Assembly (NCBI GenBank): GCA_902826615.1
Contig: CADEFN010000003.1
Location: 393,133 to 457,132 of the forward strand
Origin: an uncultured Gemmatimonadota bacterium
GTDB taxonomy: Bacteria; Gemmatimonadota; Gemmatimonadetes; Gemmatimonadales; Gemmatimonadaceae
Direction: 5' to 3'
DNA length: 64,000 nucleotides
Shown: positions 35,935 to 45,796 of the stretch, piece by piece
Layout of the letters: every line of letters begins with the position of its first letter
Position numbering within the stretch: the stretch's first letter is position 1
Notes under the pieces: generated by a model
The model's input: the letters and a program-made list of their open reading frames with translations, nothing else
What the model was told of the DNA's origin: nothing
Databases searched by the model: none
Program-made: the position numbers and the translations under genes

Positions 35935-36243
35935 TGCTGATGTCTCACGGGGGGTTGTACAAGTAACTGAAGCAGCCGAGCCTCTGTTGGGGGATGTCAG
36001 GCAACGGCGTGCTGCCTGCCGTGGCTACCTCCACTGTCGTCCGCAGCAGCGTGCGGCGGCACCGCGCGGACCCACCGCCTTGGCGCAGTGTATGGCGGCG
36101 CGTTCAATATGTCCTGGGGCGCCGGCCGCAACCACGTGGTGGGGAGCGGCTGGCGCGGCTTCCATCGCGGCGGGACGAACCCCGACTCCAAGGTCCCCGA
36201 GGGCACCCTTGGCTGGGTAGCATGCCCGTGCTACACTTCGAGC
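35935..36243. other. Intergenic region upstream of the AbrB/Doc operon
   Basis: About 309 bp between divergent genes. Overlapping open frames run through it on both strands, but none has a ribosome site or family similarity. The last 30 bp hold the inverted repeat listed separately, so the promoter of the toxin-antitoxin operon is probably at the right end. Confidence 0.5.
36217..36234. promoter_or_regulatory. Inverted repeat, likely operator of AbrB/Doc operon
   Basis: GTAGCA and TGCTAC form a perfect 6-bp inverted repeat around a 6-nt spacer, ending 9 bp before the antitoxin ATG at 36244. Type II toxin-antitoxin operons are commonly repressed by their own antitoxin binding such a palindrome. 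That this is the operator is inference from position. Confidence 0.45.
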
Positions 36244-36471
36244 ATGATCCGTTCCATCAAACTCCGGCAGGTTGGCGGCTCCGTGGGCGCCACGCTCCCG
36301 AAAGACATGGCCGATCGCCTCCACCTCGCCGTGGGCGATTCGGTATTGGCCGTCGAAACGGAGAACGGCATCCTTCTGACGCCCTACGACCCCACGCTCG
36401 AAGCAGGCCTGGCCCTGGCCGCGCGCGCCGCCAAGCGCTACCGGCACGCGTTGCGCGAGTTGGCGAAGTAG
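36244..36471 (+). CDS. AbrB/MazE-type antitoxin
   Basis: A 75-residue protein with the swapped-hairpin AbrB pattern: IRSIKLRQVGGSVGATLPKDMADRLHLAVGDSV, where the VGGSVGATLPK strand-turn matches the DNA-binding element. The C-terminal half (ALAARAAKRYRHALRELAK) is a helix suited to bind a toxin. The Doc-like gene begins 3 bp after its stop, as in a Phd-Doc arrangement with an AbrB antitoxin in place of Phd. Confidence 0.85.
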   Translation: MIRSIKLRQVGGSVGATLPKDMADRLHLAVGDSVLAVETENGILLTPYDPTLEAGLALAARAAKRYRHALRELAK

Positions 36472-36474
36472 CAC

Positions 36475-36885
36475 GTGGGGCGACGAGAGCCACGCTGGGT
36501 GTCCCGTCTGCTGGTCGAAGCCATGCACCTCGACCAACTACGGGCCCACGGTGGGCTGCCAGGGCTCCGGGATGACGGCGCCCTGGAGAGCGCTTTGGCG
36601 CGGCCTCGGAACAAGCTCGCCTACGGGCGCCGGATCGACCACGCCGCGTTGGCAGCGGCGTACGCATACGGTCTAGCCCGGAGTCATCCCTTCAACGACG
36701 GCAACAAGCGCATCGCCTTCCTCGCGGCGGTCGTGTTTCTGGGGCTGAACGGCTGGGACTTCGAGGCACCCGACGCCGAGGTGGTGGCGCAAATGGTCGC
36801 GCTCGCGGACGGGCGGATTACTGAGGCGAAGTGCGCGGCCTGGTTCCGCACCGGCATGGTCCGATTGCCGAAGGACGCAGCCTAG
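36475..36885 (+). CDS. Doc/Fic-family toxin
   Basis: A 136-residue Doc-type Fic protein. The catalytic loop HPFNDGNKR is complete at residues 71-79, with the catalytic His, the acidic metal ligand and the Arg. Doc toxins phosphorylate EF-Tu, while other Fic proteins AMPylate targets. The start is GTG at 36475, 3 bp after the antitoxin stop, which suggests coupled translation. The size and the IDHAALAAAYAYGLARS helix fit the death-on-curing subgroup. Confidence 0.88.
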   Translation: MGRREPRWVSRLLVEAMHLDQLRAHGGLPGLRDDGALESALARPRNKLAYGRRIDHAALAAAYAYGLARSHPFNDGNKRIAFLAAVVFLGLNGWDFEAPDAEVVAQMVALADGRITEAKCAAWFRTGMVRLPKDAA

Positions 36886-37641: not shown

Positions 37642-38232
37642 TCAGCCGGCATGGGCATCGAGGCCGACAACGCTGCCATCTCGATGAACGGTGATGAGTT
37701 GGATGCCCAAGCGTGCGACCAGCGGGGCGCGGCGCCACCGGTTGACAAGTTCACGAAACTTAGGCGTGTCTGGTACTGCTACCGCGAGGAGATCATCTGG
37801 TGACGCCTCTTCGAATGTCATGAGCGTCCCAATAGCCTCTCTCAACAAGGGGTACTCTTGCGAACTCTTGCCCCTTGCCAATGGCCCCTTCTTGCTTTCA
37901 ACACGCAGGGTCCGATCTGAGCCAAGGCGCGCGACGACGTCGCCACGTCCCGGGCGAGAGTGGATGTTCAAACGAAATGTAGCACCTCGGAGCGAGTACG
38001 CGCCTTGCCAAGGGGCGCCCGGGACCACCGGCGTGCAATGGTGTTCCTCCAGAAATGCCGCCAGGGGAAAATGGATTGTGTCTTTGGTCTGCACTTGCGC
38101 GCCATCGAGTGCCACCTGGACGTCCGACTTTGCAAGCCCGCATAGCAGAAGGTGGAACGCGACGCGCAGACTGACCTCTGCCTCTGTCATTCTGTCGTCG
38201 CCGAGTGTCCCACGCGTCCTGACCTCGGTCAA
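37642..38232 (-). CDS. Possible PD-(D/E)XK nuclease-like protein
   Basis: A 196-residue cytosolic protein of no recognised named family. The segment RGDVVARLGSDRTLRVESKKG supplies Asp98 and the pair Glu112-Ser-Lys114, spaced like the D...(E)xK active site of PD-(D/E)XK nucleases. The following helix (SQEYPLLREAIGTLMTFEE) fits that fold. This is motif-level inference. The TTG start at 38232 overlaps the TGA of the upstream HEPN gene (TTGA), which indicates coupling. An ATG at 38190 is an alternative start. The pair may form a defence or toxin-like cassette. Confidence 0.5.
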   Translation of the reverse strand: MTEVRTRGTLGDDRMTEAEVSLRVAFHLLLCGLAKSDVQVALDGAQVQTKDTIHFPLAAFLEEHHCTPVVPGAPWQGAYSLRGATFRLNIHSRPGRGDVVARLGSDRTLRVESKKGPLARGKSSQEYPLLREAIGTLMTFEEASPDDLLAVAVPDTPKFRELVNRWRRAPLVARLGIQLITVHRDGSVVGLDAHAG

Positions 38233-38891
38233 CGAAACAGCCGCGCGAATCGAGCGCGGAAATCCCGCTTCCGGCTCTCCGGCACTCCGGGCGGGAGCCC
38301 CTTACACGCAAAGGCAGCATGCGCGTCCCAGCCTAAGGGCCAAACCTTGAACACCTTTGACCGACAGGCTGGACACAGGACAGCCTGGTTGACCGCACTG
38401 TCCGCATCAAGGAGGTCGGGATCCAGCGCCCCATCGCTCCGCGGTGCCTGCCGCTTGGAGGACCTGGGAACTTGAGAGCGTGCCTCGGTCGGACTAGCTG
38501 GTGACCGCGATATCAGACGATCTAACTCCAAGGCCGCGTGGCTGCCGCCGATCGCTAGCGCTAGCAGCCGAATCGTGCGAAGGGCATGATCGACTTCGTC
38601 CGCGTTAAAGGTCTCATGATGAGCATGCCTGTTAGCGACGTCACGTAGCATATGTAGGTACTGCTTCACCTGGCTCGGTGTGTTGTCACGAAATGCTTGC
38701 TCCCATTCAGCGAGGCTCGCTTTGATGAGCGCCCTTGGATCCCGATCGCTAAATGGGCGTTCGCCGGTCCTTGAGAGCCGTTGCTGAAACTCGGGGCCGT
38801 ACTTCGCTTCAAGGTGAGCCCGCACAAACGTCCGGAGGTGTGGCACCAACGTTTGAAAACTGGCTCGAAGGAGATCGTCAGGTACGCTCAT
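38229..38891 (-). CDS. Swt1-like HEPN domain protein with C-terminal zinc ribbon-like motif
   Basis: A 220-residue protein. Residues about 1-118 resemble the Swt1-type HEPN fold: LEAKYGPEF near the start, then LAEWEQAF, then RDVANRHAHHETFNADEVDH (83-102), which contains the R(x4-6)H motif of HEPN RNases. A disordered Ser/Pro/Arg linker (128-165) leads to CPAC (173-176), His191 and Cys196, a plausible zinc ribbon. HEPN proteins are often RNases in toxin-antitoxin and phage-defence systems. The ATG at 38891 begins the conserved part, and upstream codons to 39065 have no similarity. It overlaps the nuclease-like gene by 4 bases. Confidence 0.65.
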   Translation of the reverse strand: MSVPDDLLRASFQTLVPHLRTFVRAHLEAKYGPEFQQRLSRTGERPFSDRDPRALIKASLAEWEQAFRDNTPSQVKQYLHMLRDVANRHAHHETFNADEVDHALRTIRLLALAIGGSHAALELDRLISRSPASPTEARSQVPRSSKRQAPRSDGALDPDLLDADSAVNQAVLCPACRSKVFKVWPLGWDAHAAFACKGLPPGVPESRKRDFRARFARLFR

Positions 38892-39135
38892 GAATGGAGT
38901 TCTGTCACCTGTCCGGCTAACTCTGTATTGTGCTGCCCACCCCAGGAAGCGACGCACGGTGGTCGGTGAGCAAGGCATGGGCGCAGGGCCTTCCCGCTCC
39001 CGCACACTCTCCAGTGTCCGCGCGCATGCCGTCATGCCAAGCACGACCCGCCCACTTCGTGTCATTTGTCCCGAACCAATCCCACGCCAGCGTCAAGCCG
39101 ACACCCGGCGACGCCAAACGGACCTCCCCCCCCGC

Positions 39136-40017
39136 TCAGAACGGCGCCGTGATCTGCCCAGGAAAACAGTCCGCCAGAATTCCCTGATTAGGATCAGGGA
39201 TCGGATCAGGATGCGGCAACAGCCGGTCCGGGTACCTCACCGGATCCTCACCATCCTTGAGCCGCAGCATTCGGTGCACCCACTTGAAGTCCACGTCCGG
39301 CTCCCGAACCTCACGCAGCTCCAGCTCGGGCCACTCCATCGGATTGATCTGGCACAAGTTGGCAATCTTCAGCATGATGGCCTGTGTCCCATCAGGCAGC
39401 GGGCTCGGGACCAGCGGGATCGAGACCCACTCCGTCGCACCAAAAGGGCGCAGCCGGACGGTTAACCCCGTTCCCTCGATAAAACGATCCCAGTAGGACA
39501 GCCCACCGTATTGTCCTACGGTCTCGCGTCCGTCAGGCCGCAACTCGCCCGTAATACGCCAGGTGCCCGTTTCCACCGCCGTGGAGAGCGCACCACCCGG
39601 GATCACCATCCGCATGTTCACGCCTGCGGGGATCGCCGTGTCAAACAAACCATCTTGCACCGTGCGAACCGGTGCGATTTCGTCGAAGTCCGGCACCTGA
39701 AACGACCCCGTACTCGGAGTGCCGTCGAGTGCCACACCAATATCCAGCTCTTCGGCCGCGAACCTGTGCACCACCTCGTATGGTGGCGCATCCGAACCAT
39801 TCGATACCGGAAGCCCCTTCACCCCGGTCAGGTTCGCGGCGTCAAAGCGGAGATACCCTACGTGCGGTGCCGCGTTCGTACCATCGGCGTGCTGCATTTG
39901 CTGCGACTTCTTGAAGCGTGCATCCGGCATGACTACACCGATTTTCCTTCCGTCCGGATTCTTGACAAAGAGAATGATGCCGGCGAACTCGATACGGAGA
40001 AGAAAACTGGTTGCCAC
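39136..40017 (-). CDS. Unknown protein coupled to CHAT gene
   Basis: A 293-residue protein without leader or membrane segment. I do not recognise a family. It looks beta-rich, with FLLRIEFAGIILFVKNPDGRK at the start (residues 5-25), a mid-region PVRTVQDGLFDTAIPAG and a Pro/Asp-rich tail. Its GTG start at 40017 lies one base after the TAA stop of the CHAT gene (TAA-C-GTG), so translation is almost certainly coupled and it should act with the CHAT protein, for example as substrate, inhibitor or adaptor. That role is inference from gene order. Confidence 0.65.
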   Translation of the reverse strand: MATSFLLRIEFAGIILFVKNPDGRKIGVVMPDARFKKSQQMQHADGTNAAPHVGYLRFDAANLTGVKGLPVSNGSDAPPYEVVHRFAAEELDIGVALDGTPSTGSFQVPDFDEIAPVRTVQDGLFDTAIPAGVNMRMVIPGGALSTAVETGTWRITGELRPDGRETVGQYGGLSYWDRFIEGTGLTVRLRPFGATEWVSIPLVPSPLPDGTQAIMLKIANLCQINPMEWPELELREVREPDVDFKWVHRMLRLKDGEDPVRYPDRLLPHPDPIPDPNQGILADCFPGQITAPF

Positions 40018-40018
40018 G

Positions 40019-43000
40019 TTAGGTCCCGGTGTAGGTGAATGCCGCCCAGACTTGCGGCGAACTCAAGGCACCTCCTCCCCCTATTGCCTTGAGTTGCGCC
40101 CGTCGAAGCGCCTCGGCCCCACCCAACCCTGCCACCAGCCCCCGATGAACCTCGACCACAAACTCCCCAGCTCTTTCATCACCAATGTCCCACACGGTGC
40201 TGATGACACCCCTGGCCCCTGCCCTCATGAAACTCAGAGCAAGTCCATTCACTCCACCGCCCCTGGTGGCCCGCGCACCAAGCGTCTGGCACGCCGACAA
40301 CACCACCACCTCGACATGAGACAGCCGCAGCTTTCCGATTTCCCGGGCCAGAAGTCGACCGTCGTCATTCTTGCCCGTCGGAGCCAGCGCGAGAAAGGAG
40401 AGCGCGGGCATCTCGGGGTCGTTCACGGCGTGACCGGCAAAATGGACCACCCTCGCCTCCAGGGCGGCCGCTGCAAATCGGGCCGGCGACGCCTCCTCGC
40501 CTCGCAATGCCACCCCACCCTCATGTATCGCCACGACAGCGTTCACCTCACTGGTCGCGCCAGGGAGCGGGGGCAGCTCCCCCCCATCATCCCCGCCCTC
40601 GCTCGCCACCAGACCCCTGCCCCCCGTTCTCGGGCCCGAAGAGGTCCCTGACAAGCCTGTCAGCCGCGTGAACTCGTACCGTTGCACGGCATACTCTCTA
40701 CGCTTGTCGTCCCACAATCCGGAAAAAGGCACCAAACTCAGCTCACGGTCCGCGAGTACGTCGACCCGCTCGACCTCCGCAAGACAACCGGCGGCAGGAC
40801 GCAGCAGCAGATCAAACAACGCCGCCGACGCCGGCCGCAACGAGGCCGAGCCTCCGCGAGCATGAAGCGCGGCGGCCAGCACCGCCACGGAGTCGCGTCG
40901 GACCGCGTGTTCAAACCGGGTCAGCGTGCCGCGCGCGATACACCACCCCACCACCCGCGTCGGCAGCAGCGCGAATGCGAGGGTGGCGCGCCCTCTCTTG
41001 CCGGAGAGCCGAGTACGCAGCAACGCCGCCCCGGCGGCGTCGCCGTTGTCGCGCTCCCAGGCAAGGCGCCTGGCACGTTCGAGGGTCGCAAGTGCACCCC
41101 ACTGCGCGTCACGCGCCAGCTCCAGTTCGATGGCCAGATCGTACACACTTTCCACGGTCTCCGAAAAGGCCGCGCGCAACTCGATCACCTCTGCTGTTCT
41201 GCTTTGGGCTTCCAGCTCCGCCATGGCGCGCTCCAGGGAACGCTGCGCCATTGTCGTGTCGCCGCGCTGCAACTGCGTGAGTGCCAGCAGATGCAGGGCG
41301 CGCGGCAGCAGTGGCTCAGCCGTTGCCCCTCCCAGCAACCGCACGGCTTCCTGCATTTCCGATTCGGCGTTTGGCGATGCCGACTCCACGAGCGCCTCAC
41401 CACTCAACAGCCGAAGACTGCCACGCACACGATCCGACGCACGCCCCGGCGGTAGCGCCAGAGCCAGACGCATGGCTTCCTCCGCATCTGACGCGCTCGC
41501 CTTGCTCCCGAACGCCGCCTGACGTGCCCGCGCCCGCTCGGCGAGGGCCAGCGCCTGGACCGCCTCGTTGCCCGAACGTCTCGCGGCCAGTGCCGCCTCG
41601 TCGGCCAGCGCAGCCGTGGCGTGCCTGAGCCCCTCATCGCGCGCGAGAGCACCCACCATCAGCAGCAAATTCCCCCGTGCAGGTGCCTGCGGGCTCGACA
41701 TCAGCTGACCAAGCCCGCGCAGCGACGCACGTTCGGCTTCGGCGCGCAGACCCGCACGCGACAATCCCTCGGCGAGCACATACGCGGTGTGTCCACGGGT
41801 GTCCCGTTCGGTGGTCGCGGCGATGGTCTGCGACGCAGCGCGGTACCAGGCCACCGCCGCCGAATAGTCGCCACGACGCACACGACTCACGCCGAGCCCC
41901 AGCTCCGTCCTGGCCCTGAGCACGCGGTGTGACGGTGGTGCCTCCCGAAGCACCTGCTGAAAGAGCGAGTCGCCCTCGACGAATCGTCCCTGCCCGACCC
42001 GCGCCACCGCCATGTGGTAATGTGCCCAGGGGGCCGCAGCACTACCCCACTTTTCAAAAGTGCGCTGCGCACGCTCGAGTTGCGGAAGGGCTGAGTCCGA
42101 GTGACCCTCCTGCATTGCAGCCACTCCCGCACTCAGCGCAGCATGTGCCTCGGCCAAATCAGGCACTGCCGCAGCGCGCTCAACAATCTGCAGCAGCGTT
42201 GAGTCACCACTGACCTGGGCGACTGCCGTTGCGGCGGCCCTCGCCTGTGCCAGCATCACGGTATCTGTTGCGCCGGCCACCACGGAGCGACCCCAGTTTC
42301 GGAGCAGCGCCCACACGGCCTCCCGGGTTGCCTCGGGGCTCTCGCGAGCCGCTCCGAGTCGTTCGGCGGCGGCCGCTGCCCGCCAGTCGGCCGGCACCGG
42401 AGCCCGCACTTTTTCGCGGGCCAGAGCCTGCCGATATCGCGCACCTTCGTCATGCCAGCGGTTGTCGTCGCGCGTGAGGAGATAGGCGTCCCACGCCCGT
42501 TCAGCCGTCTCCGCCAGGTGGAGCCGAGTGAGAATCAGCGCCCGGTTGAAGGCCACCGGCGCTGCCAAACTGTCGGCAGCATGGGCGCGTTCCGCGTAGT
42601 CGAGCGACTGCAGCAGATCACGCAGCTTCTGTGTGCGTTCTGCCTTCCAGAGCCAGACAACGGCCGCGTCATTCAGCAGCGCCGAAGTGACAGGCCCCGC
42701 CTGCAGCGCCTGGGCCATCAGTCGAGCCGGCAGGGCTGGGTCGGTCTCGCCCACCGACCCTTCCATGGCCAGGATGGCCCGCAGCCGCAACGCATCGGCG
42801 TTCTGTTCATTCTCGGCGCGATGAACCACATCCGAAAGTTCGCTCACACGTTGGCGCCGAGCCGCAGTCCGGAGCTGGCAGGCCATTCGAGGAACGTCCA
42901 GCGCCGTGCTGGCGCTGTCGCATGCACCCCACGTCACACCACCACTCCAGCGCCCCGTAGCAACACGAGTCGTGCGGAGCATCGTGTCCAGTTCCACCAG

Positions 43001-43090
43001 TTCCGTGGCGGGCTGAGTGCCGCAGGCCATGAGGCTCCCGCAACAGAGCACCGCCAGCCAGATTGGTCGGAACTTGAGCATCAATGGCAT
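40019..43090 (-). CDS. CHAT-domain protease with TPR-like helical repeats and lipoprotein signal
   Basis: A 1023-residue protein. It begins with a lipoprotein-type leader ending LMAC (MPLMLKFRPIWLAVL... Cys about 23). An Ala/Arg-rich helical region (about 60-700) has TPR-like repeats. The CHAT (caspase-like) domain occupies the last 330 residues, with the catalytic His in VVHFAGHAVND (about 887) and the catalytic Cys in VVLSACQTLGARAT (about 934). CHAT peptidases relate to separase and caspases and include the CRISPR-linked TPR-CHAT. Most are cytosolic, so a lipoprotein leader is unusual. ATG starts at 43090 and 43081 are both possible. The unknown gene follows one base after the stop. Confidence 0.88.
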   Translation of the reverse strand: MPLMLKFRPIWLAVLCCGSLMACGTQPATELVELDTMLRTTRVATGRWSGGVTWGACDSASTALDVPRMACQLRTAARRQRVSELSDVVHRAENEQNADALRLRAILAMEGSVGETDPALPARLMAQALQAGPVTSALLNDAAVVWLWKAERTQKLRDLLQSLDYAERAHAADSLAAPVAFNRALILTRLHLAETAERAWDAYLLTRDDNRWHDEGARYRQALAREKVRAPVPADWRAAAAAERLGAARESPEATREAVWALLRNWGRSVVAGATDTVMLAQARAAATAVAQVSGDSTLLQIVERAAAVPDLAEAHAALSAGVAAMQEGHSDSALPQLERAQRTFEKWGSAAAPWAHYHMAVARVGQGRFVEGDSLFQQVLREAPPSHRVLRARTELGLGVSRVRRGDYSAAVAWYRAASQTIAATTERDTRGHTAYVLAEGLSRAGLRAEAERASLRGLGQLMSSPQAPARGNLLLMVGALARDEGLRHATAALADEAALAARRSGNEAVQALALAERARARQAAFGSKASASDAEEAMRLALALPPGRASDRVRGSLRLLSGEALVESASPNAESEMQEAVRLLGGATAEPLLPRALHLLALTQLQRGDTTMAQRSLERAMAELEAQSRTAEVIELRAAFSETVESVYDLAIELELARDAQWGALATLERARRLAWERDNGDAAGAALLRTRLSGKRGRATLAFALLPTRVVGWCIARGTLTRFEHAVRRDSVAVLAAALHARGGSASLRPASAALFDLLLRPAAGCLAEVERVDVLADRELSLVPFSGLWDDKRREYAVQRYEFTRLTGLSGTSSGPRTGGRGLVASEGGDDGGELPPLPGATSEVNAVVAIHEGGVALRGEEASPARFAAAALEARVVHFAGHAVNDPEMPALSFLALAPTGKNDDGRLLAREIGKLRLSHVEVVVLSACQTLGARATRGGGVNGLALSFMRAGARGVISTVWDIGDERAGEFVVEVHRGLVAGLGGAEALRRAQLKAIGGGGALSSPQVWAAFTYTGT

Positions 43091-43096
43091 TCGGAC

Positions 43097-44011
43097 ATGT
43101 GGTGGCAGTGCTTTGCACCTGAGCTGATCCTCAACTACCGGCGCACCCTGCGCGCCGTCAGATGCTGTCCTCAGGTAACCGGTGTGGACATCGGCTACCT
43201 CTATGTCAGCGGTTCCCGCACAGCGAATGTGGGTCTTCGGGTGCATCTCCGCGAGGAGAGGGCCCAACCTCTGGTACCGCGCCCAGTCCCCTGGGCACCC
43301 ATGATTACCTCTGTCACCGTCAGCGGACACGGGGCCAGGGAGGTCATGCCGTCGTCGCGTACAGCCTTTGCCAATCCCATCTGCCCCGGCGTTCAGGTGT
43401 GCAATGTTCACCGCCGCGGCGGCACACTCGGGCTCCTGGTGCTCGACCGCCACGAACGGCCACATGTCCTGAGCTCACTCCATGTACTGGGCAGCCCGCT
43501 GCGGTCGGGTGGGAGTCCCGCGGTAGTACAGCCCACCCCTCCCATGATGCTGGGGCAAATGACCAACGGTTTTGACGACGTCATGGGAGATGTCGCTATC
43601 GCAACGATCGACGACCGGGACTGTGTTCCCGCTCAGTTCGGAACGGGGGCGCTTGTCGCTGACGCGGGCTTTCCTCAACTTGGCGATCCGGTGACCAAGT
43701 CAGGTGTTGCATCTGACGTCACTTCGGGGATCGTCGATGGCATCGGCCGCTACATGATGGGCCGAGGCGGACGCGAGGGGATGGACGGCTTTCGGGTGGT
43801 GGCAGCTGATGCCACAGGTTTGGTGGCTCGGCCCGGTGACTCAGGCGCGCTCTGGTATAATCCGCTCACTGACGTGGGCTATGGACTCCATGTCGCGGGT
43901 GAGGCGAGCGACGAGGGTACCTGGCGCGTGGGGATTGCCTGTCATCTTGCTCCTGCCCTCGATCGGCTCGGGGTTACACCATTACGGCACCCCGTCCGCG
44001 CCGATCGTTAA
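43097..44011 (+). CDS. Nal1-like trypsin-fold serine protease
   Basis: A 304-residue cytosolic protein. The N-terminal part (VTGVDIGYLYVSGSRTANVGLRVHL) is the strand-rich entry seen in Nal1-type proteases. RRGGTLGLLVLDRHERPHVLSSLHV gives the catalytic His129, MGDVAIA gives Asp165, and ARPGDSGAL gives Ser249, so the triad looks complete. It lies on the opposite strand to its neighbours: its ATG is only 6 bp from the CHAT ATG, and its stop overlaps the anti-sigma stop by 4 bp. No ribosome site is visible, so the start is less certain. Trypsin-fold and CHAT proteases are both known effectors in bacterial conflict systems. Confidence 0.75.
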   Translation: MWWQCFAPELILNYRRTLRAVRCCPQVTGVDIGYLYVSGSRTANVGLRVHLREERAQPLVPRPVPWAPMITSVTVSGHGAREVMPSSRTAFANPICPGVQVCNVHRRGGTLGLLVLDRHERPHVLSSLHVLGSPLRSGGSPAVVQPTPPMMLGQMTNGFDDVMGDVAIATIDDRDCVPAQFGTGALVADAGFPQLGDPVTKSGVASDVTSGIVDGIGRYMMGRGGREGMDGFRVVAADATGLVARPGDSGALWYNPLTDVGYGLHVAGEASDEGTWRVGIACHLAPALDRLGVTPLRHPVRADR

Positions 44012-44922
44012 CGCGCCAGCTCTTCCAGTATGACCGAGAGGTGCTCCCGGGTTGCCCCCTTGCGCACCGGATCCCGATAGTCCGCTGCGATGGTCTGCAG
44101 CCGTGTTGCCAGGGAAGGATTGCCCACAGGTAGTTCGAGTGCCGCAGCCCGCGCCCGGGTGATGGCCGGGAGAAAGTGCGCGTCACCACGCTCAGCCGAG
44201 AGCCGAGAGGCCTCAATCCACCTCCCCACTTCGTACCATGACTCTGCGTGGGTCCGAGCGGCCAGCCGCTGCAGCAAGGTGGTGTAGTCATCGGCCGATG
44301 CCCGGGCCTGTGTCACCTGCTCCCGGAGCTGGTCGGCGATCACATCCCCACCTTCGACGCGCCGCGCGAGGAGGGTCAGAGAGTCCGCCAGAGCCATGGC
44401 GGCACTCCACTCACCCAGCGCTGCGGCGTCCCACAGATCCGCAGATCGCACCCCGAGCCGTACGGCCAGCGCTTCTTGCGACAGTACTTCGGCCCCCGCA
44501 CGCACACTCCCCCAACCAGCGTGTGCCGCTGATGGAGCTGTGGCGGCGGATCGGATGCTCGCGGCGTCGGGCAACCAGCCCGGTTCATCGTCCTGCGGCA
44601 CTTCGGGGCTGAGCACACTGCGCACACCAATCACCATCGTCACGCAGGCGGCAAGCACCACGGCGGGTGTTCGGAGTTTGCCAATCCTCCACGTGTGAAC
44701 CTTGGGGGCGGTCCTCCTGGAATCCGGCACGAGGGCCAGGTGTCGCGCCCGTTCGTCAGGCACATCTGACATGTGGCGTTCGACCCTGACGACGGATGCG
44801 GCGTACGTAATGGCGTCGGGATCTTTTGCCAGCACCTCCAGCACACGCGCGCGCTCGTCGGGTGTCAAACCCCCGTCGATGAAGGCGGCGAGTGTTTCGG
44901 GGTCAAGGTGTTCACTGCTCAC
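44008..44922 (-). CDS. Anti-sigma-factor-like single-pass membrane protein
   Basis: A 304-residue protein. The N-terminal cytoplasmic segment HLDPETLAAFIDGGLTPDERARVLEVLAKDPD looks like an anti-sigma domain, although the zinc-binding HxxxCxxC pair is absent. One transmembrane helix follows at about 86-104, then a helical, TPR-like extracytoplasmic part. Start GTG at 44922 with GGAG about 8 bases upstream. It is 99 bp downstream of the sigma-factor gene on the same strand, the usual order for a sigma/anti-sigma pair. Assignment rests on the short N-terminal motif, topology and position. Confidence 0.65.
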   Translation of the reverse strand: MSSEHLDPETLAAFIDGGLTPDERARVLEVLAKDPDAITYAASVVRVERHMSDVPDERARHLALVPDSRRTAPKVHTWRIGKLRTPAVVLAACVTMVIGVRSVLSPEVPQDDEPGWLPDAASIRSAATAPSAAHAGWGSVRAGAEVLSQEALAVRLGVRSADLWDAAALGEWSAAMALADSLTLLARRVEGGDVIADQLREQVTQARASADDYTTLLQRLAARTHAESWYEVGRWIEASRLSAERGDAHFLPAITRARAAALELPVGNPSLATRLQTIAADYRDPVRKGATREHLSVILEELAR

Positions 44923-45021: not shown

Positions 45022-45796
45022 TCACAGCCCTCCCTCATCCAGCAGGTCATTCGCCTCTCCGCCATCAATGCCTCGTTGCTCGAGCTTGCTTCTGAGTTTG
45101 AGCTTCACCTGCTCAAAGCGGCGATAGAGCAGGCGGGGTTCCACCGAGAACAACCTGGCGATCTCTGCCATGGTGACCTCTTCTTCGTAGCGCAATCGCA
45201 GCATCGCCTGATCCTGATGGGGCAGATCGCCAATCAAGGTGCCCAGCAGGTGCCGGAAGCGATGCCGCTCAAGGGCACTAACAACAGGATCACTCTCGCT
45301 TCCCGCGATGGCTGGCCCGATTTGGTCAAGCGATATGGCCGCCTTGTCGGGGCGCAGTGGCAGCTGCCGTGCAGTTCGATGGAGGTCACTCGCCACAAGC
45401 GAGGGCTGCCTCCGCATCAATTCATCGATCGCCTCCCCGATGGGGTAGCCATCGCGATAGATGAGCTTCTCGAGTCCAATCGCCACCGGCCCCAGCCGCT
45501 CGGCTTCGGCCGAGGTGCGCCAGCGTCCCCGTTCCTTGTCGATGTAGTCAAGGCAAAGCCTGCTGACGACCGTTGTCAGAAATGTCGTCAGTTTGCTGCG
45601 TCCCTTGAACGCCCGCAGAATTTTGCAGTCGTTATTCGAGCAGGCGCGTGAAGGCATACCCACTGAAGTCCTGTCGCTCCTCAGGACTCAACCCGTGCGA
45701 ACGGGCAGACGCCCGTATCAGCCGCTCGAAGAGCGCGTGCTGCGCTTCAAGAAGGTGCCTGGGGTCGGATGGATATTCTTCGCCGGTATCTGTCAC
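45022..45796 (-). CDS. ECF-like sigma factor split by a +1 frameshift in region 2
   Basis: Two frames together make a sigma-70 family protein of about 257 residues. The first frame (GTG at 45796 to TAA at 45632-45634) codes for the start of region 2, ending SGYAFTRLLE. The second, one base on, continues as NDCKILRAFKGRSKLTTFL and LCLDYIDKERGRW (rest of region 2), and later has HQDQAMLRLRYEEEVTMAEIA and LLYRRFEQVKLKL, the region 4 helix-turn-helix. Dropping one T at GAA-TAA-C restores LLENDCKILRAF. The second frame alone could start at GTG 45663 but would lack most of region 2.1. Error, decay or programmed shift are all possible. Confidence 0.75.

Follow-up and report, generated by a model that had tools for sequence, protein, structure and literature searches.

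A TPR-CHAT protease, very probably exported and membrane-anchored, encoded in a sigma/anti-sigma cassette of a Gemmatimonadota bacterium

The window, by which we mean the whole 64,000-nucleotide stretch of DNA from an uncultured Gemmatimonadota bacterium that was analysed here, encodes a TPR-CHAT protein that is very probably exported and anchored in the membrane, judging from its own N-terminal leader and those of its homologues. Its gene belongs to a cassette made up of an ECF-like sigma factor, a membrane anti-sigma factor, the anchored TPR-CHAT protein, a companion protein and an interchangeable second peptidase, and membership of this cassette suggests that the CHAT protein links signals at the cell surface with gene expression. 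From sequence and predicted structure, the most fitting interpretation is that the protein corresponds to the ectodomain of a switch resembling DdvA, here made as a separate, self-anchored protein. The features on which this reading is built are listed in Table 1.

Table 1. Features of the CHAT gene and its cassette neighbours, in positions of the window
Feature	Position	Strand	Basis
TPR-CHAT protease gene, 1,023 residues	40019..43090	-	Open reading frame, as placed in the earlier note
Export leader, residues 1-22, MPLMLKFRPIWLAVLCCGSLMA	43025..43090	-	N-terminal sequence and leader search
Cys23, predicted lipidation site, LMAC lipobox	43022..43024	-	Cys in 10/26 aligned homologues
Cys57, invariant 26/26, likely disulfide partner	42920..42922	-	Homologue alignment
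Cys71, invariant 26/26, likely disulfide partner	42878..42880	-	Homologue alignment
Helical TPR region, about residues 95-680	41051..42808	-	Pfam, predicted model and structural comparison
CHAT domain, residues 753-1022	40025..40834	-	Pfam
His887, catalytic His (HFAGHA), invariant 26/26	40430..40432	-	Homologue alignment
Cys934, catalytic Cys (VVLSAC), invariant 26/26	40289..40291	-	Homologue alignment
Companion protein, 293 residues, without signal peptide or Pfam match	39136..40017	-	Open reading frame, alignment, Pfam
Trypsin-like peptidase (GDSG motif), divergent from CHAT gene	43097..44011	+	Orthologue at same place in G176
Anti-sigma-like protein with a single membrane helix, preceded by a short N-terminal part and followed by about 199 residues	44008..44922	-	
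Membrane helix of anti-sigma-like protein	44608..44664	-	
ECF-like sigma factor, downstream piece of frameshifted gene	45022..45687	-	
ECF-like sigma factor, upstream piece, other frame, ending at a stop	45632..45796	-	

By its domain and catalytic dyad, the gene product is a caspase-like CHAT protease with predicted proteolytic activity. The match to the Pfam CHAT family PF12770 (residues 753-1022) had an E value of 1.5e-50 and a score of 172.8 bits against a cut-off of 24, and both residues of the His887/Cys934 dyad are intact in the window protein and invariant across 26/26 full-length homologues, an alignment comprising 25 members with the companion gene and one further member, L075. This confirms the claim of the earlier note that the C-terminus keeps the CHAT His and Cys motifs. 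A PADLOC analysis of the CHAT part returned a weak BovA match alone and named no known defence system.

The N-terminus, MPLMLKFRPIWLAVLCCGSLMAC followed by GTQ, has a positive n-region, then a hydrophobic core, and at Cys23 a lipobox (LMAC followed by G), so that the hydrophobic stretch ending in LMAC that had been read from the sequence earlier is confirmed. Under a simple hydrophobicity rule, used in place of SignalP and accompanied by a simple rule for choosing start sites, the same leader search was run on codon-shuffled N-terminal regions of the same genes, of which 17% gave a hydrophobic and 0.4% a lipobox leader, and on two control families of cytosolic genes at these loci, in which 1/50 and 1/26 members had a hydrophobic leader. 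Against these shuffled regions and controls, the leader in the window is more than would be expected by chance. Translation probably starts at either the ATG at 43090 or the ATG at 43081, and the leader is kept with both. A start upstream of 43090 was rejected, as the homologues place the leader at 43090/43081; codon-position base composition gave no decision there because that region is coding on the other strand.

A hydrophobic leader is present in all 26 homologues, with a lipobox in 14 and a Cys-less, anchor-like form in 12 (24 measured by script, L166 and L075 read by eye), and none was seen to start downstream of the leader, the observation that had been named earlier as speaking against a lipoprotein. 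The aligned Cys23 column holds a Cys in only 10/26, which is how the conservation check proposed for the Cys near residue 23 turned out. As the leader is found throughout and the cysteine is not, the anchor is conserved but its lipidation site is not: predicted membrane anchoring is a conserved property of the family, and the anchor chemistry, a lipid or an uncleaved helix, is variable. The lipoprotein reading thus stands for the lipobox of the window protein, with lipidation being one of two anchoring modes in the family rather than its general rule; a Cys shared by orthologues would strengthen that reading but is not strictly required for it.

Beyond the leader, the evidence on topology points outward. 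Cys57 and Cys71 lie just behind the leader, with 30-46 residues between leader end and Cys57 in the measured homologues, and this invariant pair fits a likely disulfide outside the cytosol; in the predicted CHAT model, residues 38-80, where the proposed bond would lie, are of low confidence. Against an outside location, an oxidising compartment would be an unusual place for a free catalytic Cys. In nearly all of the 26 homologues, positive charge is greater on the N-side flank of the leader than on its C-side. In addition, a relative at another locus (L149:7223-11548, minus strand) unites a zinc finger, a membrane helix, and the TPR and CHAT parts in a single frame of 1,442 residues with a sigma gene immediately before it, which places CHAT C-terminal to an anti-sigma membrane helix. 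Together with the leader in 26/26 and the cysteine pair behind it, this fusion supports the earlier proposal of an exported, membrane-anchored protein.

These observations also bear on the possibility that CHAT is cytosolic, with the leader acting as a signal anchor whose C-terminus is inside and the companion serving as a substrate, as Csx30 does for Csx29. Lipoboxes are functional in exported proteins only, and 14/26 leaders contain one; the invariant Cys57/Cys71 pair, the charge bias predicting an N-inside orientation and the position of the L149 CHAT beyond the anti-sigma membrane helix likewise oppose a cytosolic location, which we regard as very unlikely despite the companion being a constant neighbour without a signal peptide. 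In favour of a cytosolic CHAT, a membrane CHAT protease is known in HetF, which, according to the available part of its description, has one membrane segment and is found at the membrane (PMC8406250); HetF differs in having its CHAT part N-terminal and in acting in cyanobacterial cell division and heterocysts, and that part of the description mentions no sigma cassette (PMC8406250).

In order to place the window protein among its relatives, CHAT genes were collected across the phylum with their surrounding DNA, and 125 distinct CHAT reading frames were sorted by their neighbours. The leader test was passed by a majority in every CHAT group of the phylum (20/29, 17/26, 11/15 and 30/45), and among six CHATs on plasmids of other phyla a hydrophobic leader was recognised by eye in 3/4 cyanobacterial and 2/2 Bacteroidota proteins. 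An exported CHAT protein is therefore, as far as predicted leaders indicate, not unusual, being common in this phylum and also occurring in some cyanobacterial and Bacteroidota CHATs. The earlier note had presented export as breaking a rule that CHAT peptidases act in the cytosol; that premise is true of characterised cytosolic enzymes only. Of its overall interpretation, export and anchoring have held, the broken rule has not, and the cassette of sigma, anti-sigma and companion genes, which provides the best candidate for a target, had been missed.

The sigma gene of the window is split by a frameshift, its two pieces (45796-45632 and 45687-45022) matching contiguous parts of one orthologue. 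The two split pieces give weak matches when compared with sigma-70 regions 2 and 4, and an orthologue (L066) scores above the TIGR02937 sigma70-ECF cut-off. The frameshift could reflect a mistake in the assembly, decay of the gene or recoding, and because of it the window copy of the cassette may be impaired. The source record is a 98-contig assembly. A second cassette in the same genome (L076, G000:C1, about 767-775 kb) has an unbroken sigma frame, together with an anti-sigma gene, a lipobox CHAT, a companion and a C14 caspase. The anti-sigma-like protein of the window has a sub-threshold zf-HC2 match and lacks the zinc motif. The CHAT and anti-sigma genes do not form one simple operon, since the divergent trypsin-like gene lies between them, its likely ATG (43097) being a few bases from the CHAT start. 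Further along, a Swt1-like HEPN protein is encoded immediately downstream of the companion gene (38229-39065, minus strand), and a MazE-like antitoxin gene followed by a Fic/DOC gene forms an ordinary-looking toxin-antitoxin pair (36088-36885, plus strand).

Across the phylum, the cassette was found in four families. Sigma genes of one type, matching at above 150 bits, are concentrated around CHAT genes, with 47 in the 732 kb within 3.5 kb of them and 2 in the 597 kb beyond. Each anti-sigma-like protein has a single membrane helix, in most cases preceded by positive residues, and two sub-types can be told apart. In the zinc-motif sub-type (27 loci), HxxxCxxC is present in 26/27 and mostly about 110-120 residues lie outside; in the sub-type of the window, the zinc motif is found in 0/20, and 190-220 residues follow the one helix on the outside. 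The zinc motif is not universal among anti-sigma factors. The companion family belongs to the sub-type of the window and not to the zinc-motif one. The same sub-type often has a second peptidase, which is a C14 caspase at 10 loci, an S8 subtilase at 5, a trypsin-like enzyme at 2 (the window and G176) and an M28 peptidase at 2, and four peptidase queries gave no match in the 27 loci of the zinc-motif sub-type. In a tree of 122 CHATs built by a quick method, the companion-linked CHATs group with two unlinked rows (L075 and L146) apart from the others with a support of 87, and 65/122 CHATs fall outside both sigma-linked groups. Outside the phylum, the same gene order is seen on the Aureibacter tunicatorum plasmid pAT7 (Bacteroidota; L208), with a sigma gene, an anti-sigma-like membrane protein and a CHAT that bears a signal peptide, so this arrangement is not confined to the phylum; that CHAT has a C-terminal membrane helix and adjoins a peptidase ABC exporter. 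Two other loci were seen in passing. One, on a G347 contig (L088), is an array in which the series CHAT, companion, subtilase occurs twice in succession, followed by a protein kinase-like reading frame; at the other, in Gemmatirosa kalamazoonensis (L070, NZ_CP007129), the orthologous CHAT sequence is divided between two reading frames.

The companion family occurs in 14/395 genomes, nearly always beside CHAT genes. It had no match in Pfam, its profile had none among solved structures, and a predicted model built from 4 sequences (mean pLDDT 64.9) gave no useful fold match, from which we do not claim a new fold. A pattern scan of the genome contigs found no relatives with the single protein as query and three with the companion alignment as query. 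In all aligned companions (8/8), the C-terminus lies near a Cys and DFKW is invariant. Neither the companions nor the second peptidases have an obvious signal peptide, and any link between them and a protease outside the cytosol must consequently be indirect.

Among solved structures, the closest counterpart of the window protein is DdvA. The CHAT profile matched PDB entry 8rot at an E value of 3.5e-15 across both the N-terminal TPR and the CHAT parts with His and Cys kept, and DdvA was the top match of the predicted model in Foldseek and VIA, with a Z of about 20 and a high whole-chain rmsd, domain arrangement lying outside that comparison. In its PDB title, 8rot is given as DdvA, a transmembrane anti-sigma factor, and those who deposited it describe a protein with a CHAT domain. 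As known here from the PDB title and the alignment, DdvA (8rot, 8rw5) shares with the window protein homologous TPR and CHAT parts, the dyad and a tie to a sigma factor. DdvA is one polypeptide, whereas anti-sigma (44008-44922) and CHAT are separate genes in the window and are fused only in the relative L149, which is placed among separate-gene relatives on the quick tree. The window CHAT also has an anchor of its own, either a lipid or a helix, and its cassette additionally contains a companion and a second peptidase.

The L149 fusion and the DdvA match place CHAT in the sigma switch itself. We consider it an evenly balanced proposition that the CHAT limb controls the membrane anti-sigma factor, probably by cutting it; the leader, the dyad, the cysteine pair, the cassette and the membrane helix of the anti-sigma protein are seen in the sequence, and cleavage, sensing, the regulon and the disulfide are what we infer here. 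Several observations speak against the proposal: the divergent trypsin-like gene between the anti-sigma and CHAT genes of the window, the missing zinc motif of its anti-sigma-like protein, the companions and second peptidases with no obvious signal peptide, the unusual setting for a free catalytic Cys, and the 65/122 CHATs outside both sigma-linked groups. In this proposal, the TPR-CHAT cysteine protease would be exported and then tethered to the membrane, through either a lipid or a helix that stays uncleaved, with its TPR and CHAT parts outside the cytosol, forming the extracytoplasmic limb of a sigma/anti-sigma switch that would be a split version of the single-chain DdvA arrangement. A signal outside the cytosol would be sensed by the TPR region and would activate the CHAT domain, which would then target the portion of the membrane anti-sigma factor that lies outside, most likely cutting it, and so free the sigma factor. 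The freed sigma factor would increase expression of the cassette genes, among them those for the cytosolic companion and the second, cytosolic peptidase.

Two other roles can be weighed against this. CHAT could be an output of the sigma factor instead of its regulator, an exported protease with targets in the envelope or outside the cell. Conservation of leader and dyad would suit such a role, target genes often adjoin sigma/anti-sigma genes, and many exported CHATs of the phylum have no sigma neighbour; the L149 fusion and the DdvA match, which put CHAT in the switch, leave this a distinctly doubtful reading. CHAT could also serve chiefly in sensing or as a scaffold, holding the anti-sigma factor and releasing it by a conformational change, with peptidase activity being minor. 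DdvA unites anti-sigma and CHAT parts in one chain, the TPR region suits binding, and the CHAT substrate is not known; given that His887 and Cys934 are invariant in 26/26, as strict as any residue, this role appears unlikely.

No description of this cassette was found in the literature searched, of which coverage was partial, and several known systems share parts of it. Craspase and CASP-sigma likewise combine a TPR-CHAT protease, a sigma factor and a sigma inhibitor in one locus, where Csx29 (TPR-CHAT) cuts Csx30, the inhibitor of CASP-sigma (PMC10028731), which is a precedent for a TPR-CHAT protein that cleaves an inhibitor of a sigma factor. Craspase is RNA-guided with Cas7-11, whereas the window CHAT has an export leader; there were no direct repeats of at least 22 bases, and so no repeat array, in the 34-50 kb part of the window and no Cas family among the neighbouring reading frames scanned. 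In the EACC1/EACC2 systems, a protease of the caspase type has membrane segments, some parts are constant and others variable, and an ECF sigma gene is sometimes nearby (PMC7159879, PMC8195603), whereas here the companion lacks a Pfam match and the constant protease is an exported TPR-CHAT. RseA/DegS (cited in PMC10028731) is the counterpart of the mechanism proposed here, in which proteolysis of an anti-sigma factor in the membrane takes place from outside the cytosol; DegS belongs to the serine proteases, whereas the putative cleavage here would be by a membrane-anchored caspase-like enzyme.

Finally, the cassette may form a proteolytic relay spanning two compartments, in which the exported, anchored CHAT would cut the anti-sigma factor and the freed sigma factor would induce the companion and the interchangeable protease, in a surface-triggered and possibly suicidal or defensive response. 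We put this forward tentatively, as possible but somewhat doubtful. With its near-exclusive occurrence next to these CHAT genes, the companion family presents a new and concrete target, and together with the peptidase module it is worth specialist attention. The cassette offers a direct test of whether CHAT proteases are the first to cut in sigma release, and it joins three scattered observations, namely the solved anti-sigma factor DdvA with a CHAT part, the cutting of a sigma inhibitor by Craspase, and the large number of exported CHAT genes to which no role has been assigned. If the proposed switch is correct, caspase-like signalling would be extended to the outside of the bacterial membrane.
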